The notes beneath the pieces were generated by a model that saw nothing but the letters and a program-made list of their open reading frames with translations, did no database searches and was not told the origin of the DNA. A stretch of 64,000 nt of DNA from Enchytraeus crypticus (taxonomy: Eukaryota; Annelida; Clitellata; Enchytraeida; Enchytraeidae). Shown in pieces: positions 3,484 through 40,800 of the stretch (positions are counted from its first letter, which is position 1; every line of letters begins with the position of its first letter). A program made the position numbers and the translations under genes. The DNA lies in the NCBI GenBank assembly GCA_905160935.1, contig CAJHZI010000548.1, forward strand, positions 2,119,501-2,183,500, in the 5' to 3' direction.

Positions 3484-3800
3484 TCATTTAACCAAGCATT
3501 TTATTGAACTTGTTGAGGTAATGGATTCCGTTGAGTCATTCAGTCTGTCATTCAGTCTGTCATTCAGTCTGTCATTCAGTCTGTCATTCAGTGTGTCTTT
3601 CAGTCTGTCATTCAGTCTGTCATTCAGTCTGCCAATCAGTCTGTCATTCAGTAGATACCATGGTATATAAAGCCTCCACGCTTCTCTGTCTTCTGATTTC
3701 CTCTTCATGTCCACATATGAATGAATCCTTAAATTATCTAACATTCCTAATCTCGGCCTGCCTCTGCCTCTTTTTCTTTAGAGTTCTATCGAAGGAATAA
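3484..3800 (-). mobile_element. LINE 3'-end stub (hairpin-tail family) joined to a 12-bp minisatellite
   Basis: The minus strand from about 3790 to 3660 encodes a decayed form of the LINE C-terminus seen intact at 45.1-45.5 kb ([24 protein letters not shown]). The stub ends near the ACCATGG motif at 3658. Directly beyond its end lies a 12-bp tandem array, unit CATTCAGTCTGT, about ten copies (3531-3655). The repeat creates open frames on both strands with no coding value. Confidence 0.7.
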
Positions 3801-5224
3801 AAGAGTTTCAGAGAAGTTCCTAACTTACATGTATTCCAGAAATCTCTATTTTAAAAATAGCAACATAACGGCTTTCGTCCTCGATTACTTTAATTATCAA
3901 TGGCTAATACAATTTATTAGAAAAGTGACAACATTTAAAAATATTTCATTTTCTAGGTCGGCGTCAATATTTGCACTAAAAGACATTGCGGTCTTAATTT
4001 TAATTGAGCAAAATCTTACATTCGCCTGCCTTGAGCAAGCAATTACAGTACCTCGGCCAGTGAATCCAACTTATTGTTGTTTACCAGAGAATATTTTAAG
4101 GAAAAATTAGGCCTAAGTTATCTGATTCTGTAAGATTTATAATAATCAATATTGTAAAATTTCTGTCAAATTGGATATTTTATTGACTAGATTTATAACC
4201 TTCGTATCCTAACTCATAGCGCATCATTCTCATGCACTGTTCAAGATAAGCTTCTCAGATCTCGAAGCCTGAATTTTATTTTCTCTTTAATTTTCAGAAG
4301 CTACAAGAATACTTTAATCTAACAGCATTTTGAAGTTTATAATGAAGCAGTTATGAAAAATCTTCTCAAAATAGCGAAACAGTGACAAAATACGTAAAGA
4401 TGAGAGAAAAATGTAATTTGGTTAACATGTGGCCATAGTCACATGAAGTTAAAAGAAAAATTAAATAATAAAAAGCAAGGATGTAACAGAACTTGTTTCT
4501 AACTTTCATATCGAAATATTTTAATAATTCTAAATATCTTAAATTAAACTAATCAAGATCATTTATATATCTTTTGTAGAAATGCTCCCAACAACAAGAA
4601 GAACAACATAATTAGAGTTCTACTTTTATTCTTGACAACATTGAGCACTATGAAGCCATCATCATCATCGTCGTCATCATCATCATCATAATCATCATCG
4701 TCATCATCATCACCAGTACTATTACTATTACGGACGAAGGAAGAACTCCAATCTTCCGTATAATATTATTCAGCCCCCATCACGGCTTCAAGTGAGATTG
4801 GGAAAGAAAATTCCAGCCTATCGTAACTCCGAGGTTCCGTGAATTGCGCTTTAGGTCCTTCAGCAGAGTTTGAGCGGCTACAGGGGAGGCTAACATCCGG
4901 CATCGACAACTGCCGATATGAACGACTGACATTTCTAATAGTGCGAGCAGGAAGTCGAAAAAATTGGTGCCCGTATAATTGAAGAGTTTTCTGGCATTTT
5001 TCTCTCGACAATTATTCTGCTAGTAGTGTTGATCTGAAATTTTATTCTAAAAAAGATAATTTTTATGGCAATTACAATTTCCGCTGCGAAAGTTAACGCC
5101 TGCTAGACTAAGGTACAAATTGATTACAATATTTAGAAGTAAAAATTTTAAAAATTGGAAAATTGAAATGCAGGTGTGAAATGTTTTCAAATCATCGATC
5201 CAAGAGAGCAGAATCAATTTGCAG
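3801..5224. other. Intergenic; imperfect CAT/CGT triplet run
   Basis: No gene recognised. An imperfect (CAT)n/(CGT)n triplet tract occupies about 4656-4715. The segment 4775-5000 is richer in GC than its surroundings but shows no protein or RNA family that I recognise. Confidence 0.5.
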
Positions 5225-18764: not shown

Positions 18765-20057
18765 TCATACCTGACAGGAGGTTGCTTGTTTACCTTCTTG
18801 TAACTCCCCCCATATTTTTCTCAGCAAAGCTGGCGTAGCCTTCGTACCTGTAAGAATTTTGCGAAGCAGTATATCACAGACAGTGGGAGATCGATAGGTC
18901 CAGAACGCAAAACCATCCTGCTTCACGTGCGTCACGTTAAGAACCTTACCCAGAATTCCGGTTATATACACGTCGTCTATAAAAATGGACGGAACATATT
19001 CCGCCGTCTCAAACAGATCTTGAACGAGATCGACAGTTATTATATAGGCAGCGCCCGATTCGTACGGTGGTAGATACTGAAATGGGAACTCTTCTTCGGT
19101 TAGGCGCCATTTTCCAGATCTATAGGCCCGCGAACCGACGTTGTACGGGCCCATAATGGCCCGCTGTAGCTTCCTGGTGTTGAGAACGTCGATTAGATAG
19201 GGAAGATGTATGAACATATCGTCGTCACTTTTGAGGAGGTACCTCGCACTAGAGCAGTTCTCTTTGACCAGCTTCAGACCCAGCAGAGATTTAAGCGTCA
19301 TATTCCGATAGGAGTCGACAAAATCTCCCACAGCGATATCGTTGTATCTCTCCGCTTCCTCCCTCACCAGTTCATTCATTCCCGGATCTGAATGCAATCC
19401 CAGCACAAAAACTAATCTAATTCGCTCTTTGATAGATGCAATCCCAGGCCAGGCTCCGTTAGTCCTTGCTACGGATCCCCAGGAAGTCCTAATGGCGGAT
19501 CTCCGGTCCGTGTGAGTGTGGAATGTGTGAACTAGAACGATCATGTAAGTGTCCGGTGGACAATTAGTCCGAGGTGTGACTAGAAGAGAGTGGTTGTACG
19601 TGTTGACTTTACTAGGCTGACGTCTGTAATATCTCTTCTCTAATTCTGTTAAATTAACCCTCTGTCCGCCTGTTTTCAATCGATTTCTCGCCAGATCTCG
19701 TAAGTTCTGCGACTCAGCGTGACGTTTTGCAAAGAGATTCGTATTATTAAACTGAATTTTTGGATTTTTTAATACAACATTTGACAAGAGATGCATTGGC
19801 CCGCGGTTTAAGGAAGAAGGAATGGATATAGTCATGGAGGAAGCCGATGCGGCAGGGCTAACGTTCGACACAACATGTTTACCAGACAGCGCCGACTCCC
19901 GGGTGTTAGTGGCCGCAGGTATCGAGTTAATTGAACGCCAGTAGGAGAGGAATAGAAAATTTTCTATAAACACGACACAAAATAGATAATAGGCGAAGCC
20001 GCAGAAGATGGATTTAAATTTTCTGCTAATATTTTTCCAGCAGCATAAGGTGGGCAT
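18765..20057 (-). CDS. Beta-1,3-galactosyltransferase-like type II Golgi glycosyltransferase (GT31)
   Basis: The 430-aa product has the GT31 family layout. A short basic cytoplasmic tail leads to one membrane anchor (about residues 16-40 from this Met), then a stem of about 120 residues with several N-glycosylation sequons, then the catalytic domain. Numbered from this Met, motifs are RRSAIRTSW (185-193), DFVDSYRNMTLK (245-256), the metal-binding KSDDDMF (276-282), PPYESGAAY (330-338) and DDVYITG (361-367). Such enzymes transfer galactose or GlcNAc from UDP-sugar in beta-1,3 linkage in the Golgi lumen. The acceptor cannot be told from sequence. The coding region is one exon, usual for this family. 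I start at the first ATG (20057); the frame is open to an in-frame TAG about 60 nt upstream. A TTTCAG acceptor-like site near 20102 leaves open a 5' exon. Confidence 0.9.
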   Translation of the reverse strand: MPTLCCWKNISRKFKSIFCGFAYYLFCVVFIENFLFLSYWRSINSIPAATNTRESALSGKHVVSNVSPAASASSMTISIPSSLNRGPMHLLSNVVLKNPKIQFNNTNLFAKRHAESQNLRDLARNRLKTGGQRVNLTELEKRYYRRQPSKVNTYNHSLLVTPRTNCPPDTYMIVLVHTFHTHTDRRSAIRTSWGSVARTNGAWPGIASIKERIRLVFVLGLHSDPGMNELVREEAERYNDIAVGDFVDSYRNMTLKSLLGLKLVKENCSSARYLLKSDDDMFIHLPYLIDVLNTRKLQRAIMGPYNVGSRAYRSGKWRLTEEEFPFQYLPPYESGAAYIITVDLVQDLFETAEYVPSIFIDDVYITGILGKVLNVTHVKQDGFAFWTYRSPTVCDILLRKILTGTKATPALLRKIWGELQEGKQATSCQV

Positions 20058-20204
20058 CAGCAAAGCATTATATTCATTTGCGAACGACTGGAGCTGGAAT
20101 GCTGAAATCTACATGTAGAAGTATTACAGCTGCATTACCCTGGGAATCTCTGTGCTAGTTACAGATTAAGCGTATTATCTAAAACAGAATTACATAATAT
20201 ATAC

Positions 20205-28808: not shown

Positions 28809-31800
28809 ATGGCGAGTGATGTGCGTGATATCTTGGAACTTGATGGACCAGAAAATGACCGAGAAGAATATATCACAAAAGAAGCTCTCTTTGGTGACTC
28901 CAGAAAGGTTAGTTTTATAAATTGAATGTCTAGAACTGAATTTCTAATTTTTTTAAAGTGACAGGTACTCAGAACTTTCTTTACATATATAAGTAAAATA
29001 CTGGTTATATTGTAATGTCTAAAACTAATTCTCTTTCAAAGTAGTTTGTGCATGTGCTTCGTGAGATTATAACTTATTTTTGTTATTAATATTGATCTCT
29101 TTAATAATATTAAATAGTTCACTGATCATATTACTATACCTCTAGTTATTGGCACCTATGTTTATTTGAAAGTCTTCAAACACGGACAAACAATTGCAAA
29201 AGCAGGCAAATCAACAGTTCAAAGTGTGATCAACATATGTAGCATCAAACAGAAATTAAAACTTATTTAATTTTATAAAATTTAATTATTTGCTTGTTTG
29301 TGGATGTAGCTAAAGAAGAAACAGAAAACGGAGCAGAACTTTAAGAGGCCTGAGGGAATGCACAGAGAATTGTGGGGTCTGCTGTGGACAGATAATAAGT
29401 TTGTTTCTAGAAAAAAATTTATTTTACCACTTTTACACTGTGTATTTATTGTATTCTTGTTCATAATATACATATATGCCACATATATGTATATGGTACA
29501 TATATGCCTTGTATAATAATTACCAGAATTTACCAGAACAACAACAACAACAACAATATGAGTGCTACTGTCATCAATAACAACATCGAGCACTATTGAG
29601 ACAAAATCAAGCCGGCGAGCAAAAAGATGGTCCAAAACGGTGCAAATTCCAAAATCCAGATAATCAGTCCAAAGTACAGAGTATTAAAGAAAAGGAGGTT
29701 TAGACGCAGGTCGCTGCTCATGGACACTGGATGGAAAAGAGAGATGGAAAAGATAGGTCTTCAACTGCCTATGGAACTGATCATAGGAAAGCAAAGGCCG
29801 ATGTGCTTCAAATGAAGATCTCCGAAGATTAGATGGAAGAGAATTCCAGATCTGCGCTGCAGCATGCTGGAAAGAACGATTACATAGCTTAGAGCGCGAA
29901 GGTAAGCTAGGTCTCACAAGAGTAATTAATTTAGAAGACCGAGTAACAGCAGGCTGCATCACTTTAATCAAGTGAGACATACAAGGTTGTCCAGGGATGG
30001 TGATGGAGTTATAGGCTAACGAAGCTGTTTTGTAAATGATGCGCTCTTTAATCTTTAGCCAGTGCAAAGACTTTAAAATGGACGTAACGTGTGAGTACTT
30101 GAAACTACAAAAAATTGCTCACACAAGAGAATTCTGAACAAACTGCAATCGATCAATCTCACAGCCAGGGAGATTCAAAAACAGGGAATTGCAGTAGTCC
30201 AATTTCGATTGCACAATAGCAGCACCAATTGTAGCAGCTCTCTCACATGACAAATATGGACGACGAAGATCTCAGATATGAAAGAAACATGCTTGTGAAG
30301 TTTTAGTTATGTGTTCGTGGAAGGTTAGGTGTTTATCAAGGATAACACCGAGATTTCTCACAGAAGAAACAGGTGTTATTGTAATATCCGAAGATAACGT
30401 AAGAGTTTTCCCATTCAGCTTCAGAAGCTGTTGAGGTGTCCCAACCAACAAGAATTCAGTCTTAGATGGATTAAGTGCCAAAAAATTAGCAGACATCCAA
30501 GAGGATATAGACTGAAAACTTTGTTGCAGGAGGGTTTCAGCATCAGAGTAGGAGTTAGGGGTGAAACAAGTGTACATTTGAGTGTCATCAGCATATAGTT
30601 CATGATCAATAGAATGAGAAGAGATCAGTGAGCTTAAGGGTGTTGTATATAGGTTGAAGAGGATAGGACCAAGAACGGAGCCTTGAGGCACACCATACTT
30701 TAAGTGGGAAGGTGAAGAGACGTACTCCATCACTTTCACACTAAAAGAACGATCCCTCAGATAGGAAGAAAACCAAACAAGAACAATTCCACGAATACTG
30801 AACCAGGAAGAAAGACGTTCCAGAAGAATATTGTGATCAATGGTATCAAAAGCGGCCGAAAGATCAAGCATACATAATCCAGTTAAGCCTTGTGTGCACA
30901 TGGCATTGACAGTAGAATTGCACACAGATAGAAGCACCGTTTCAGTTGAACGATGCTTAGTATAAGCAGCTTGATGCTTATTAAATAGATCGCTCAGAAA
31001 GCTCATCCTTGGAATGAGTCTCTACTGGAGTATGAGGAGTAGAGTTAGGAGCTGGAGAGATAGATGCTCTAAGATTGCTTATCTTATCACTAAAGTAACT
31101 GAAAATTTGTTCAGGAAGTGACTCAACATGGGTAGAAGGAAGAGAAGGAGAAATAGATCTATATAAAAGATCATTAACAGTTTTCCATAATCTCTTGACA
31201 TTCACAGCCTTACTGACCAAAGAGGAGTAGTACTCTTTCTTAGCATTAGCAATAGCAGTACGATAAATCTTGTGTTGCAAATTAGAAACAGTTTTCCAAA
31301 AATCGGAATGGGTAAGACGCCACTTTCTTTCAGTTCTACAGCATGCACCCTTTAGCTTTCTCAGATCAGAGGTGTACCAAGGGTTAGATTTCTTAAGCTT
31401 CTTGGTAGTTAGAGGTGCATGCTTATCAAGTAGAGATGAAAGAGTAGTGTTATACTGTTTTACTAATTCATCAAGATCATTAGAAGGAGACTTGATCAAA
31501 GTCGAGTTTTCAAGATCAGAACAAAAGAGATCAAGATCAATACTATTAATACACCTAAATGAAACAGTAGCTGAATTTTTAATAGTATCTGGCTTAATAT
31601 GGTTATAAGTGAATACAGCAGGAAAATGGTCAGACGGCGAGTGAGATAAAATATTAACACTTAAAGGATCAATAGCAGAGAGACTTGGTCTCTTTGCTAT
31701 TAGTAACAACATCAAGTGTATGATGATCAATATGAGTAGCAACATTCACATGTTGAACAGCATTACAAGAGGACAGCAAAGTATTAAACTGCTGAGTTAA

Positions 31801-34800
31801 GGGATCAAGAGGATTATCAAGCTGAATATTGAGGTCACCTGTAATCACAAAGTCTGATTTAGAAGTTGTAAGGAAGGAGAGTAGGGCAGAAAACTCAGAT
31901 AAAAAGAGAGAAAAAGGTTTGGCATAGGTGGAGGAAAATGGTGGTCGATACACTGCAACAATATGCAGAGTACATGTGCCAAATTTGCCAGTGACTGAAA
32001 TTGCTTCAACTGAAGAAAATTTATGACAGTCATTGCTAAGGAGGGTAAAGGGCTTCCTTAGCATGAGAGCAACTCCACCACCCTTAGCACCAGATATCCT
32101 AGAGTCACGATTTGCAATAAACATATCATAACCTGGAGGAAGAATGGACATCAGTTCAGAAAGAGTAGTTATAGAGGATAGCCAAGTTTCACTGATAGCA
32201 AAACAGTCAAACTTGTGAGTCTCAGCCAAATCATGCAAAGCAATGATATGGTCTGAGTTAGAGAGGGATCGAATGTTAAGAGAGCAAAGAGAAATATTGT
32301 TTCGAAGAGAATTAACAGGAATTCTTGATCTAAGCATGCTTACAAGACTGATTAATCAGTAATTGTAAACAATACAGAAAGTACAATATAAAATACAATA
32401 TAGTATTACACAAATTACATAAAATGATACAAATACACAAAATTAACTAACGATCAAAATATAAACACTATAACTTTAACAATTTTAAACAGTAGAAGCA
32501 GTAAAAATAACTGCAACGGAATCAACTATAACGGTAAAATAACGGTCAAACTGTAAATTGATTTTTCAACAAAATAACTATATAACAGATTAACAATGCA
32601 ACATAGAACTATGAACTAAGTTAATAGTACGCCAATGTACTTAATCAAGTCTAAAACTATTCACTGAAGACGCTCAATTTCATTAAAAATCTATTTATTT
32701 ATTATAAATCAATAAATAAACAGTCCTGTCAACACAGAACTGCTACTATCTTTCATTATTGCAATTCTTCTTCAAACTTAGGTAGCAGGGAAAGGGGAAG
32801 AAAGCCATGATTTTATTTCCATTGCCAATCATACATCATTACAACATCCAGCTTGTTTTTAAAACTATTCACTGACACCGCATTAACAACCTTCTCACTC
32901 AAAGAGTTCCACCTATCAATCTCCTTATGAGAAAAAGAAAACTTTCCTATGTCTGTTCTCACTCTAGGCTTAAAGAGCTAGGCTGTTATAAGTGGACTTA
33001 ATGTCATATTTGCCAAGACATTCAGCTTTGACAAGCCTCCTGACTAAATCGATGTTTCATTTGAATTTCACATTTTTTACTATAAAACTTTTATTATAAA
33101 ACTGCCTTTAAACTCAAAACATTAAGGTTTAGACGTTATATTCTAGTTTTGTATAAAATGTTGTGCTTTATTAATTAATAAATTATTATAATTAAATATT
33201 AGTTAAACCTTTACTATTGTTATAATTATATTTGTATTTGATTCAAGCAAATGATGAAACTCTTACTCTGTATTCGTAGAGATGCTCCTCCGATCATGCC
33301 AACAGACACACAGCATGGCTACAAGCAGAATAAAGCTAAGATAGGTCAGAGCAAGGTCCGACCATGGAGGTGGACCCCTTTCACAAATCCTGCTAGAAAG
33401 GTTAACAAATACTGTTAGCTATTCATTGAATATTATTATACGTTATTTTGTGGTTAGAAATAAATAAATAAATCGCGCTCGTTCAACCATCGTATAGCAA
33501 CCTCATCAGCAGTGTGTAGCAGTATATTTACTTGCTTGATTACATTTATTGATCACATTATATAAGAGTGTATAATGTTAGAGCTCGATGGTGGTTTGGC
33601 TTGCCTACACACTGCTGATGAGGTTGCTAAACGATGGCTGAACGAATGCGATTTCCTTATTTATTTCTAACCACAACTTAACGTATAATAATCATATGCA
33701 GATACTCAGATATATTAAAAGAAATGGTAAATATTAAAATTTGTGAAGGTAACACTTTAAAATCTAGGACTTTTAGAGCAAGAACTATTTTTTATTTTAC
33801 TCCTCAGGATGGAACTATATTTTCTATTTTATTCCTCAGGATGGAGCTATATTTTCTATTTTATTCCTCAGGATGGAGCTATATTTTATATTTTATTTCT
33901 CAGGACGGAGCTATATTTCATCACTGGAGGCGTGTAGCAGACGAGGGGTTGGAATATCCATTTGCCAGATTCAACAAGGTTCTCATACTTACATATTTTT
34001 TAATCAGAACTTTCATAGTTAAATATATAAATATTGTCAATAGATATTACGAATTATGAGCGGACATCATCATCATCATTTTCTTCTCTTGAATCCCTGT
34101 TTAACGAGGGTTGTGATTAGAAAATTTTGTAGCAGTTTCTTAAGTCTAGGTGCTAACCAACTGAATGGCCTTTCTTGCTTAGGTTTGGATCTTAGTGCTT
34201 TGTCTCCTTTTACAGCATACACAGTTTACAGTTGGTCTATTCTTCAGCAACTCGGACACAACATAGGTATTAAATTAAATTTAAGCGTTCAGTCGTTGAA
34301 TATGTAGACAACTAGGTGAATAGGTGAATTAATCGAATGATTGATTGATGATGTAGACAGTTACATGAACTTATTGATTGATTGATTGATTGATTATGCA
34401 GACGGTTGATGTTCCTGTCTACTCGGATCTAGAGTATCAGCAGCACTTGCAGGATGACGGATGGACTAAACAGGAAACGGATTTCTTATTTGATCTATGT
34501 CGGAGGTTTGACAACCGGTTCATCGTCGTGCATGATCGCTGGGATAAGCAGCGATTCTCCAGTCGCGCCGTCGAGGATCTCAAAGAGAGATACTACAACG
34601 TCTGCAATCAGTTAGCGAAGGTCCAGGATTTAAATGTCTAAAGTTCACCTAGTCGGAGACATTTTATTGATTATAATTTTTAGATAATATAGATAATTAT
34701 TGTACTAAAATATGTTAAAAAGAAAAAAGCTAATGATAATGTCAGTTTCCTGACTCGAAAGCGATGTCAGTGACGGGCGAGACCAGGATTTGACCCCACG

Positions 34801-37800
34801 CATACTGATCCGCAGTCGAATATCTTACCGATATCGCCATTGGCTCCAGCCAGTTACTGATACACTTGTACTTATACAATGGAACCTTGCCTAAAATAAC
34901 TGTGTCCAGAATAAAAAAATACCTGGAAAACTTTTAGTAGAACGTTCTATTAAAATGTTTTAGTAAAGCATTTTCTACTAAGTTTTCTACTCTAGCAGTA
35001 TTATAATGTTAACGTTATATCAGCTGAATTAAAGTTACAAATTTTACTGAAAGAACTCGTTTTCTAAATAGACGGTAACAAGTGCATTTGTTCATTGCAA
35101 TCTTTGATTTATTCATTGAATATTTTTGTTCTTATATTCATAGTCTAATTTATGCTTAATATCAAAGTAATTTTTGAAATCACTTGAATATGGAATTATT
35201 TGTAATTATTCTTCTTAAATATTAGATTGATAGCATGACAACATCATGCACTGTGAATTGTTTAGGTTCGGATGACTCCTGGGGTTGAGGTGAAGATAAA
35301 GGGATTTGATGCTGCTCATGAGAGGCGAAGAAAAGAGCAACTAGAAAAACTATTCCATAGAACCGAAGAACAGGTTTGTAAGATGTCCATGTGCACGTGT
35401 GCTTATATTACTTTATAGTGTCGCCCGCTGTGTATTTGGTTACATGCACGTACAGTATACATTGAATCCGCTTTAAATTTTAATACTAGCATTTAGAACT
35501 GAGTATTTTGTGAGAAAGGTGGTCTAATATTTGGCATCTAGGTTAAATAAAGTGTTATAGGTAGATATTTTGCATCCAGAGACATCCATAGTCCTTGCTT
35601 GTAGGCAGCGTATAATATCTTGTGTTATGTGTTTATAATTGAGATTCTAATTATTACTTCAACTTGCTTTAATTAATTAATTAAGTCAACTTGCTTTTCC
35701 GAGGAATATAGACTCATATTTTACTAGAAATTCTACAAATACATTATTTACCATCTGAAACTGCATCAATATTATTTTTTCTTAACAGTGTTTTATGAAC
35801 AGTTCTTACATTTATTTAAAATTTTACAGTTTATGCTGTATTTATTTCATAGCCCTTTATGATATCTGCTGACAGAGAAGATGTTACTGACAAATCTTTG
35901 TATGATGTTACTGTATAGGATATATTGATATGTAGATGAAATAGCAGCGATTGACAGATCAATGTATAATGTTTGTAGAAAGAAGAGGAGGAGCTATTAC
36001 TAAATCATATTATCTATATTTAAAACGGGACTGATTGACAGGTCATTGTGTAATGTTTGTAGATGAGGAGGAGGAGGAGCTATTGCTAAATCATTATGTG
36101 ATAAGGAGTGATTGACAGGTCATTTTGTAATGTTTGTAGATAGAGGAGGAGGAGCTATAACTAAATCTATATTTAAAACATGACTGATTGACAGGTCATT
36201 TTGTAATGTTTGTAGATGAGGAGGAGGAGCTATTACTAAATCATAATGTGATAAGGAGTGATTGCAGGTCATTGTTTAATGTTTGTAGATAGAGGAGGAG
36301 GAGCGATTGATTCAGGAGTTGAAGAAGATAGAGCAGAGGAAGAAGGAGCGAGAGAAGAAGACTCTGGACCTGCAGAAGCTCATCACGGCTGCTGACACAA
36401 GTCTGGACGCGAGGAGGTCTGAGCGCAAAGCCTCGAAGAAAACTGTGCCGATAAAAGCTCGCGACATCAGCACTGTGAGTTTATAGTGACATTGTGACAT
36501 CAGCACTGTGAGTTTATAGTGACATTGTGACATCAGCACTGTGAGTTTATAGTGACATTGTGACATCAGCACTGTGAGTTTATAGTGACATTGTGACATC
36601 AGCACTGTGAGTGCTCTGTAATTTAGCTTTTTGTTGAGCAAACGAGCATAATAAAACAAAATATGAAACAAAATGTCTATAACAGTTTTTGTGGAAGTGC
36701 TCTAGTGTAAGATTGTTTAGTTATTGCACTTGTATTTTGTATTCTGCACTGTTTCGGTCTTTGTACGACAATTGTTAAATTTCTCAGTTGTCTAATTGAC
36801 GAATAAAACATCTTCATAAAATAGTCATAATGTTTATTTGATGACTATTATGTTTACACATAATGTTTATTTGATGACTATTATGTTTACACATAATGTT
36901 TATTTGATGACTATTATGTTTACACATAATAGTCATAATGTTTATTTGATGACTATTATGTTTACACATAATAGTCATAATGTTTATTTGATGACTATTA
37001 TGTTTACACAATGTTTATTTGATGACTATTATGTTTACACAATGTTTATTTGATGACTATTATGCTTACACATAATAGTCATAATGTTTATTTGATGACT
37101 ATTATGTTTACACAATGTTTATTTGATGACTATTATGCTTACACATAATAGTCATAATGTTTATTTGATGACTATTATGTTTACACATAATAGTCATAGT
37201 GTTTATTTGATGACTATTATGTTTACACATTATAGTCATTCATGATGAAATTCGTCCTTTAAAATATCTCAAGATTAACAAAATTAATATCTCAAAGGTA
37301 ACAAAATCTGATTTCCATTTGTACTGTAGAATCTATGATAACCATACAATTTAAAACCAATACACCAATTTGGAACGAAATACAATTAAAATCATTTCTA
37401 ATCAATGTGGTTGTTGATGTTGTTACTAATTGAATGTTTCAGTTAACGCCTGATATGACGAGCATAAAGTTTGCAGATTTCAAACAGTCTGGAGTATCGT
37501 TACGCAGTCAGAGGGTTAGTATGAGCCAGTCATTTCAAGTATTCATTCTTCATACTCTTTAGAGGTGACCAAGGCATATGCTATATGTGACTGTGACTTT
37601 TGATTGATCGTTCAGTTGTAAGATATTCAGTTCTTCACAGATCTAGTTACTGCAACGATTGTGGTTTTAGCAGCTGTTCTACTCTCTAGCTCAAAAGATG
37701 TTATAATGCATCAATCATTTATATACGAGGATTTAGCGTTTGTTTCGTCAGCTGACGATGAAGGCAAACATGATTTGAGGTAACCAAACAACCGCATTAA

Positions 37801-40800
37801 AAACATTTATTCTAAAAATCATTTATTTTAACTTAAACATTTATTTGATTATTTCTGACTTTTAGTACTGTTTTGTAATTTTCTTTGTTTTTTTGCTACA
37901 TTAGATGAAGCTTCCTGCATCATTGGGACAGAAGAAGACGAAGGCCATTGAGCAGATACTAGAGGACATGGGCATAGGTAAACTAACTTGTCAAGATTTT
38001 GCTCTGTGCCATGGTATTACTGTGTGAATGTTTGAAATGTTCTGTTAAAAGCTCTTCTACCTCAGCTTGCCCTGAAATTAGGCCATTTAAAATTGCTGAT
38101 GAAATTCTAACAAATTCTACTTCTCAACCAGTGTCGAATGTGCAAGAATGTTGTTTTTGATATAGCCTACAAGACAGTCTTTGTCGGGACTTCCTTGTAA
38201 AACATTTCTTTTTAACTGCAGGACAGTTGAAATAATAACACTTTCATCTTGTAATATATAACCTAGATATGAATCTCTTTTTTTATCAATCAGTTAATCG
38301 AAATTTAACGTACCTTTCTTATATCGATATAAAGGTCATCCATTCATTCCTGGTTTTCTGCAGTGCAGCTTCGGCTGTTGAGGGCAACGTTAATTTTCTG
38401 CTAGAGTTGGTTTTATTGGTTGATTGACGACAACTTACTAACCTGATTTTTATATTTTCTTAGAATTGAATCCTGTGCCCACGAAGGAGATAGCCTCAAG
38501 TTTTAACGACCTGCGGCAGGACATAATGCTGCTGCATGAGTTACGAGTAGCGCTCGCTAACTGTGAGTACGAACTGCAGACACTGCGCCATCGCTACGAA
38601 ACACTCGTTCCTAATAAGGTGCGTACCCCTCTTGATTAATTATACTTCATGAAGTCATGACATTAGCACGTAATGAGTTGTTGAAAGTAGAGTGTTATGA
38701 GTTCATGACGTAAGTCTACATTTGTTTTATTTGAAAAAATAAGGCCCAAGATTGATGTTAAGGTCAGTTTCATCAATCGATAGGTTATCAGTGACAGGCG
38801 GGTCAGGAATTGAACTTATGCTGACGCATGTGCTAAGGTCAGTGCTGTCCTTGGCTCCTCTATCTTATTCGTCGACAACTCTTGGTATTTATTATGTGTG
38901 CCGTCCAACTAGCTCAGAAACAAGATTAATCATCTAGCCACAGTCATCTGCGTGCCAAACTTTAGACAAAACAGACAACGCTAGGTTTGAGTCGCAGTTG
39001 TTTCTTTACTTATATCCGTACATAGTAGTCTAGGAGTTTATTTAGTACTCTACAGTGGCACACTGTTTTGATTTAATCTTGAATTTGGTAAGAAACAATT
39101 TAGCGCCATCACCTAAGCTTTAGCCACTATGAAAAAGACCGTGAGATGAACATAGAACTAAAAAAATTATATGAAGAACCAACATGAGAAAGTTGTCCAT
39201 TTTATTGCTTTCTAGATTAAAATTTATTCAGTTTAGTGTTTCAGATTGAATTTATTGCTTCCAATTTGTTGATTAGATATGAAAATTTATCCAGCTACTG
39301 GGAGTCACTGAAATTATTGCAATTTTGTGTGTTGCTGAAATTATACAGTACTATGATGTAACAGAATTATATAAGTGTTCGATTTGCTTAAATTTGTTCT
39401 TTAGAGATTTATTTTTTTTAAGTACAGACTATAGCCTGGAGCCCCTTCCCATATTTCTTCAAGTAAGCTTTGAAATTAGACTTCTTTCAGTTTTCTTAGA
39501 GATTCCTGCCAATTCTTTTTCTAGTTTCATTTTTATTTTATCTAATGGCGATTCTTAATCATCAAATATACATTGTTTCTTAAACCTTCTCTATTTGTAT
39601 ATATTTATAACATTTGGCAAACTATCACCGTACAGTAATATGACTTTGAACTGTTACTATCCAACCGTCATTGACGCCACTTCCAACACGTAAACGCCAC
39701 TAGTCTCTTCTACCACCTAATAGTCACTCCTGCCACCTAGTAACCGCTCCTAGCATGTGATTTCTACTTCATTTCTATGGTGTCCTATTTTTCAATTAAA
39801 GTTCCTTTGTATGGAATGATTCCAATGACAAGTATTCGGTGGAGTGTAGGTAGAGTCTAAATCTTACATTTATCACTTCCATTCTCTTCTACAGAATTGT
39901 AAAATATTTATTGGGGGAGGAGGCAAATGAAAGTCAAGTTGACCACTGCTCTTGGTCCAGGAATAGAAAAGGCAGTTGCCCTTGCTAAATTTTCCTATGG
40001 CGAGTTTCCCCTCTCCTACCCTATGGGTGGGGCATGCACCCCTCCTACCCTATGGGAGGAGTATGCACCCCTCCCCCCTATGGGAAGAGCATGCACCTCT
40101 CCTCCTCTATGGGAGGAGCATGCACCCCTCCTACCCTATGGGGGGAGCATGTACCCTTCCTCCCCTATGGGGGAGCATGCACCCCTCCTCCTCCCCTATG
40201 GGGGGAGCATGCACCCCTCCTCCCCTATGGGAGGAGCATGCACCACTTCCCCACTCCTCAGCTGACGTCGCTCGCCGCCCGAAGCCCGTCGTTAAGTCGT
40301 TCATTAGACGTCGTTGTGCGAGCGCTGTTAGAGAAATATGTCGACAATTTTCTCCCCGGTCTGCTCTGGGCGGGGATTGATAACCAGTGGGATCCTATAG
40401 GATTAGCTCTCGTCTGTACTGGATTGCTGGGAAAAGCGGACAGGCGGGGTCCACGGGCCCCGTTTTATCTTCTTTAGAAGTTGTTTCGAGTGAGGAAACT
40501 GACGTTAACATCAGCTTTTTTAAAACTTAAAATGATTTGTTTTTTCAACAACAGTATTGCTATGGCTGTTATCTGGCCGGTAATCAGTTTTCGAGACTAC
40601 TTTACTGGTTCATTGCAATTTTTTACTGCAGTTTATGCAAATACTCGTCAGATATGCCCTCCTCCTCCTCCTCGTCGTCTTAGGCGTATGAAATGGACTT
40701 AAAATTTTGCGTCTGGTGGAAACTAACATACGATTACATAATTCGTGGTTACTTGACTTTCTTATGAGTTTCTAATAACTGTTAGCATGCTCTAATGTTT

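Follow-up and report, generated by a model that had tools for sequence, protein, structure and literature searches.

A minisatellite across the exon 4 acceptor of DMAP1 in Enchytraeus crypticus, probably a mirage of tolerated decoy splice sites

The fourth coding exon of the DMAP1 gene of the annelid Enchytraeus crypticus is preceded by a row of near-identical copies of its own 3' splice site. We hold with good confidence that this array is a minisatellite of the type called a mirage in amphioxus, produced by head-to-tail duplication across the splice junction and carrying surplus acceptors that are tolerated as decoys. The gene lies in a 64,000-nucleotide (nt) stretch of contig CAJHZI010000548.1 (positions 2,119,501 to 2,183,500 of the forward strand, assembly GCA_905160935.1), which is referred to below as the window and whose first letter is position 1. 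An earlier note on this DNA had left two readings of the array side by side, a splice-choice switch and a set of neutral decoys. On the sequence comparisons presented here the second appears to fit better, because copied junctions turn out to be common in the sampled genes of the genome and only one of 48 decoys is in frame and open; the switch is disfavoured, and its insert would interrupt a part of the protein that is well conserved.

The exon 4 array and its gene

Tandem Repeats Finder (TRF) delimits a minisatellite at 33786..33918 on the + strand, across the junction between intron 3 and exon 4, and its score of 224, with a period of 32 bp and 94% matches over 4.2 copies, shows that the repetition is not the product of chance. 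Each unit joins 17 nt of intron to 15 nt of exon, which confirms the earlier statement that the duplicated unit spans the junction, and the four AG acceptors reported at 33807, 33839, 33871 and 33903, spaced by 32 bp, are found both in the sequence and in the TRF array. The first of these belongs to copy 1 (33791..33822, +), the second and third to copies 2 and 3 (33823..33854 and 33855..33886, +), which are identical to each other, and the last to copy 4 (33887..33918, +). Pairwise identity among the four 32-mers is 27-32 of 32, with copies 1 and 4 each showing three differences from the inner two; the lead and the exon start are thus shared as the earlier note had described, the exon beginning with GATGGA in each of copies 1-3 and with GACGGA in copy 4.

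A genome-wide search of 524,188,772 bases (524 Mb) in 802 contigs, which skips simple repeats and very common words, returned one match for window positions 33700-33990, so that the place of the array is unique. A transposon-borne intron (introner), which would be present in many genomic copies, was rejected on the strength of this single match. It is extremely unlikely that the array was created by the assembly process: short-period arrays can be mis-assembled, and the genome paper describes a PacBio/Illumina hybrid (PMC8460440), but units 1 and 4 are distinct from the inner pair, similar arrays with different units occur in unrelated genes, and the place itself does not recur.

DMAP1 is encoded on the + strand by ten exons with matching phases, at 28809-28907, 29310-29398, 33280-33400, 33904-33978, 34402-34620, 35266-35373, 36289-36474, 37443-37514, 37905-37977 and 38464-38618, which join into an open frame of 1197 nt. 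The mapped coding extent is 28809..38618; exon 10, the last mapped, ends at a donor, and the mapping stops before the C-terminal end. Exon 4, of 75 nt (33904..33978), is delimited by the unit comparison, the match to human DMAP1 and the open frame. A 381-residue version of the protein matches the Pfam families PF05499 DMAP1 (E 5.1e-65) and PF16282 SANT_DAMP1_like (E 1.8e-33), and the name given to the gene in the earlier note is borne out by the match of the spliced product to human DMAP1 (PDB 8qr1_F, E 1.8e-157). This alignment is free of gaps at the junction of exons 3 and 4, running contiguously from FTNPARK into DGAIFHHW, and because of that contiguity acceptor 33903 is identified as the site that makes the conserved protein, which it alone among the four acceptors yields without a gap. 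The stretch formed by KVRPWRWTPFTNPARK and, across the junction, DGAIFHHW aligns without a gap to the human protein, and two Swc4 chains show nearby gaps of just 2-3 residues.

All 10 matches that the DMAP1 protein gave in the genome fall in this locus; a second copy of the locus was sought genome-wide and none was matched, nor was any processed copy (retrocopy) that could serve as a record of splicing. The end of exon 5 (window 34615-34630) reads AAG/GTCCAG, a weak-looking donor, and the frame stops a few codons further on if it is left unused.

The array has the composition by which mirages are recognised, namely a unit containing both intron and exon that is repeated at 32 bp for 4.2 copies, an AG in all four copies, and inner units 2 and 3 that are homogenised while the boundary units stand apart. 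It would have begun with the duplication of a short stretch over the 3' splice site (17 intron nt and 15 exon nt), which was then copied and homogenised within the array. The first repeat may have come from slippage or unequal exchange involving a short stretch of intron and a similar one of the exon: GAACTATTT, which immediately precedes the array, and GGAGCTATATTT, within the exon, are alike and occupy the equivalent position in the unit. Exchange within the array would then have spread it, in keeping with the identity of units 2 and 3. Duplications of this kind would be kept out of the mRNA so long as the exon-attached site is spliced, and the array would be tolerated since splicing presumably uses the last copy, the sole one with the full exon and a donor. 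The choice of site would accordingly follow the context provided by the exon: a decoy has 15 exon nt followed by the next pyrimidine tract, and the 32-bp unit holds no GT with which a separate small exon could be closed, whereas copy 4 continues into the complete exon with its donor. A role of exon sequence is reported from experiments in which duplicated splice sites compete. Reporters with competing splice sites are described in excerpts of PMC1877881, which do not deal with the present case.

Two further mirages lie at exon 7 of the same gene. The first, detected by TRF and by reading of the sequence, is an array of about 75 bp period over the exon 7 acceptor (35949..36308, +), in which GTAG precedes the junction in five copies whose first exon bases are 35979, 36063, 36140, 36216 and 36289, the last being the real one. 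The other, supported in addition by a frame check, is a 33-bp array over the exon 7 donor (36463..36612, +) with 4.5 copies that are 100% identical; its unit junction is GACATCAGCACT followed by GTGAGT, giving five identical donors. Exon 7 is thus bounded on both sides by junction-spanning arrays, with five acceptors and five donors. The exon 7 decoys examined, two acceptors and all four donors, lead to stops without exception.

Copied junctions and (TTGA)n tracts in other genes

The frequency of copied junctions elsewhere in the genome was estimated in three conserved families, the CCT chaperonins, the proteasome and the kinases. A junction, represented by 15 nt on each side, was counted as copied if a second version lay within 1 kb and agreed with it at no fewer than 24 of 30 positions, with a minimum of 11 of 15 on either side. 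Score decided where a junction was placed near the end of a hidden Markov model hit; CCT exons were examined with flanks as long as the gene, those of the proteasome and kinases with flanks of 300-450 nt. The 57 CCT matches were reduced to 52 when five that lay in long single reading frames (C373 one, C259 and C400 two each) were set aside; the 27 proteasome matches were all fetched, one of them without an acceptor call; and 20 kinase exons were obtained of 60 requested (mostly within the domain) among 137 matches.

In the CCT genes a copied junction was found at 12 of 52 acceptors and 1 of 52 donors, compared with 188 of 1581 points in intron interiors and 4 of 173 in exon interiors, and under five threshold settings the acceptor count ranged over 9-13/52 while the donor count stayed at 1/52. 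Thinned controls gave 32/265 in intron interiors, 13/43 at 120 nt upstream of acceptors and 5/43 at 120 nt downstream of donors. The proteasome genes showed a junction copy at 3/19 and 0/7 acceptors (3/26) and at 2/20 and 0/7 donors, the kinases at 2/20 acceptors and 1/20 donors, and with the three families pooled 17/98 acceptors had a nearby copy against 4/99 donors (Fisher p 0.0026). Junction copies are therefore common at acceptors in the sampled conserved genes; the deficit at donors comes from one family, in which several donor calls are uncertain, including that of the sole positive (C368, 10686).

Some individual positions carry uncertainties of their own. The acceptor called in C368 at 4143 may lie at 4137, the positive acceptor of C554 has a single copy 387 nt away, and the ungapped test missed acceptor arrays that TRF detects, such as those of C795 at 8013 and C620 at 9057, as well as two of the four acceptor decoys of DMAP1 exon 7. 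By the strict test the kinase exon L084 has eight further copies of its acceptor, of which seven lie upstream and one 26 nt downstream, most of them spaced by about 30 bp; its true acceptor may be another copy, and the called position is uncertain given the one downstream.

When 17 acceptor arrays are considered (12 from CCT, 3 from the proteasome and 2 from DMAP1, the two kinase arrays being outside this count), they hold 48 decoys at a threshold of 22/30, which is looser than the 24/30 of the junction count. The AG is intact in 47 of these decoys, and 17 are displaced by a multiple of three (16 of them with the AG), but the combination of an AG, the right frame and an open reading occurs just once, in copy 1 of DMAP1 exon 4. 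If arrays were kept for the protein variants they allow, more open frames than 1/48 would be expected, and a splice switch as a general rule finds no support in this frame test. Harmful decoys would be expected to show decay of their AGs, and nearly all are intact instead, although intact AGs are weak evidence because homogenisation acts on the arrays and the real AG is not free to vary.

Intron 3' ends in this genome also carry tracts of (TTGA)n. Stretches rich in this repeat occur within 50 nt before 13/52 CCT acceptors and after 0/52 donors; of 1343 points inside CCT introns, 71 are rich in TTGA in the sense orientation and 1 in the antisense; and nine gene regions (CCT, L037-L052) yielded 66 clusters in the sense and 5 in the antisense direction, 12 of which end 2-21 nt before an annotated acceptor. 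The kinase sample gave 2/20 acceptors and 0/20 donors. A further tract stands just before DMAP1 exon 5 (window 34373-34395). The motif TTGAT resembles the animal branch point, and the strand bias hints at either transcription-linked slippage or selection on the RNA. Genome-wide, (TTGA)n precedes GCAG at 3670 places and GCTG at 2427. These places overlap, and GCTG serves badly as a control, since an acceptor-like AG is often present in the listed GCTG matches; no test was built on the two counts.

These observations bear on the possibility that modules composed of a branch point, a pyrimidine tract and an AG have been selectively kept to strengthen recognition of the 3' splice site. The greater frequency of CCT copies at acceptors and at 120 nt upstream than at the comparison points is in line with it, as are the tracts that precede acceptors and never follow donors and the near-complete set of decoy AGs. 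Intact AGs are, however, also expected of young or homogenised arrays, the comparison with flanking positions is biased by the invariance of the real AG, and 81/98 acceptors have no second copy by the junction test; we consider this explanation quite unlikely. A broader proposal, which we put forward tentatively and regard as possible rather than probable, is that in this annelid intron 3' ends are hot spots of tandem branch-point and acceptor modules, both (TTGA)n and junction minisatellites, which are generated by a process linked to transcription or splicing or maintained by selection acting on the RNA. Support for it comes from the sense bias of (TTGA)n in CCT introns and from the contrast between CCT acceptors and donors in junction copies; the excess of acceptors over donors is not significant in the proteasome and kinase families. 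If it is true, the genome would offer a natural collection of 3' splice sites repeated in identical form, from which the spliceosome picks the one attached to the exon.

Coding consequences of the decoy acceptors

The strength of the four DMAP1 acceptors was scored with a matrix built from 52 junctions of the E. crypticus genome. With a pseudocount of 4 the scores of copies 1-4 are 6.84, 3.63, 3.63 and 8.03, and with a pseudocount of 10 they are 6.71, 4.58, 4.58 and 7.73; these values replace those of an earlier small-pseudocount matrix, in which copies 2 and 3 scored 1.78, a figure ascribed to zero-count positions. Acceptor 33903 scores highest, and copies 2 and 3 fall at the 10th percentile of real acceptors. 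The suggestion that every copy is a plausible splice site is borne out by the matrix.

Use of the acceptor at 33807, with 33808 as the first exon base, would lengthen exon 4 to 171 nt, the frame remaining open through the ten mapped exons with 32 residues added (DGTIFSILFLRMELYFLFYSSGWSYILYFISQ), while a first base at 33840 leads to a stop in exon 5 and one at 33872 to a stop in exon 4. The earlier predictions, that the farthest copy adds 96 nt in frame and without a stop and that the middle two shift the frame, are both correct. Whether the open frame of copy 1 is unusual was judged from comparable units: when the 17+15 nt of other acceptors of the genome were repeated three times, 8/52 gave an open frame, and when exon 4's own 15 nt were kept and the 17 intron nt exchanged for those of other acceptors, 11/52 did so. 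Since comparable units are open at these rates, the open frame of copy 1 needs no special cause.

These results can be set against the proposal that copy 1 is used in some cells to produce a DMAP1 with 32 mostly hydrophobic residues ahead of the SANT domain. Copy 1 is a good acceptor, not far below the real one in score, its extension is in frame and open, and it is the only copy that could give a frame-keeping isoform; but an open frame of this kind arises by chance at the rates given above, none of the other 47 decoys shares the property, and the insert would fall inside the stretch shown above to be gap-free to the human protein and to have only small gaps nearby relative to Swc4. A switch of this kind is very unlikely. 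Nor is much weight given to the proposal that the frameshifting copies 2 and 3 direct transcripts to nonsense-mediated decay and so set the level of DMAP1, which we judge quite unlikely: the stops that they introduce do lie upstream of later junctions, and the examined exon 7 decoys give stops likewise, but these two copies have the lowest scores, and random decoys would behave in the same way, 47/48 lacking the combination of frame and openness with an AG.

The decoy interpretation has several points to contend with. Copy 1 lies inside the range of real acceptors, at the 31st percentile; the slippage step is proposed from the similarity of two short sequences; the difference between acceptors and donors is carried by CCT, being 5/46 against 3/47 (p 0.49) when that family is left out; and CCT acceptors exceed intron interiors only about twofold (12/52 against 188/1581, p 0.028, for points that are not independent). 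On balance the exon 4 array, taken alone, is probably silent, and if splicing uses the exon-attached last copy, as the decoy interpretation holds, then the open frame of 32 residues is an accident.

The remainder of the window, known systems and meaning

Intron 3 contains, upstream of the exon 4 array, an inverted repeat resembling a miniature inverted-repeat transposable element (33432..33692, no strand assigned), with 88-nt arms that are 91% complementary and 85 nt between them. Intron 2 holds open reading frames, recognised by eye as resembling reverse transcriptase and endonuclease, on the - strand at 30272-32337, similar to a retrotransposon without long terminal repeats (non-LTR), and a second non-LTR retrotransposon-like piece with a reverse transcriptase match (PF00078) lies at 366-1490 on the + strand. 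A galactosyltransferase-like single-exon gene occupies 18765-20063 on the - strand (PF01762, E 7.2e-38). No further multi-exon gene was recognised by eye among the frames of at least 75 residues in the window, on which no family search was made. TRF reports 119 rows for the whole window, some overlapping, and many are minisatellites of 20-60 bp.

Outside the window, cox1-like fragments occur on contigs C361, C424, C796, C373 and C166, most with stops, and are probably nuclear insertions. The mitochondrial contig C802, of 15,205 bp, has a full cox1 once TGA is translated as W (tables 4, 5, 9, 13 and 21 all leave it open, and table 5 was taken) and, on one strand, the order cox1-cox2-cox3-nad6-cob-atp6-nad5-nad4L-nad4-nad1-nad3-nad2, with names assigned by eye; atp8 and the rRNAs were not recognised. 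The genome paper gives a mitochondrial genome of 15,205 bp with the gene order of Lumbricus but for the place of one non-coding segment, and a genome of 525,192,231 bp in 910 scaffolds with a GC content of 35.41% (PMC8460440). Its main text contains no word that starts with minisatellite, satellite or splice.

NAGNAG and other close tandem acceptors offer an exon several AGs a few nt apart behind a common tract, whereas the DMAP1 copies each have their own tract and lie 32 bp apart. The closer parallel is provided by the mirages that excerpts of PMC3087553 and PMC3902484 describe in the amphioxus genes for Adh3, the globins BflGb6 and BflGb9, troponin C and PGBD5. These too are head-to-tail repeats that straddle a boundary between exon and intron, whether at the start or at the end of the exon; many of their units carry an AG or a GT, and the inner units of the globin arrays are homogenised much as DMAP1 units 2 and 3 are (PMC3087553). 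The sizes differ, the units being of 10-72 bp in Adh3 and about 150-160 bp in the globins, as opposed to 32, 33 and about 75 bp in DMAP1 (PMC3087553). According to the same excerpts, Adh3 data and globin RT-PCR (reverse transcription polymerase chain reaction) suggest that regular splicing is undisturbed (PMC3087553), one globin array is present with 6 units in one haplotype and 3 in another (PMC3087553; PMC3902484), and it has been proposed that new introns can come from mirages (PMC3087553).

Two other systems are comparable in part. Boundary tandem repeats, which can lead to alternative splicing by way of novel introns, are reported in human segmental-duplication genes, but the material presented there concerns recently duplicated primate genes (PMC2812944), whereas DMAP1 matched one locus only. 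An earthworm metallothionein gene, sequenced in a bacterial artificial chromosome and likewise from a clitellate annelid, has duplications of exon 4 that are absent from the transcript, although the passage concerned does not present them as a junction minisatellite (PMC12783039). No case of an annelid mirage was found among the literature matches listed.

The DMAP1 arrays are thus of a known kind, the mirage, in a phylum other than that of amphioxus. Identical acceptors standing in a row provide a direct test of how the spliceosome chooses a 3' splice site, and where the excerpted amphioxus accounts report mirages gene by gene, about one in six of the sampled conserved-gene acceptors of E. 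crypticus (17/98) has a copy nearby; a genome of this kind would make what was a curiosity of lancelets into a system with many natural replicates.
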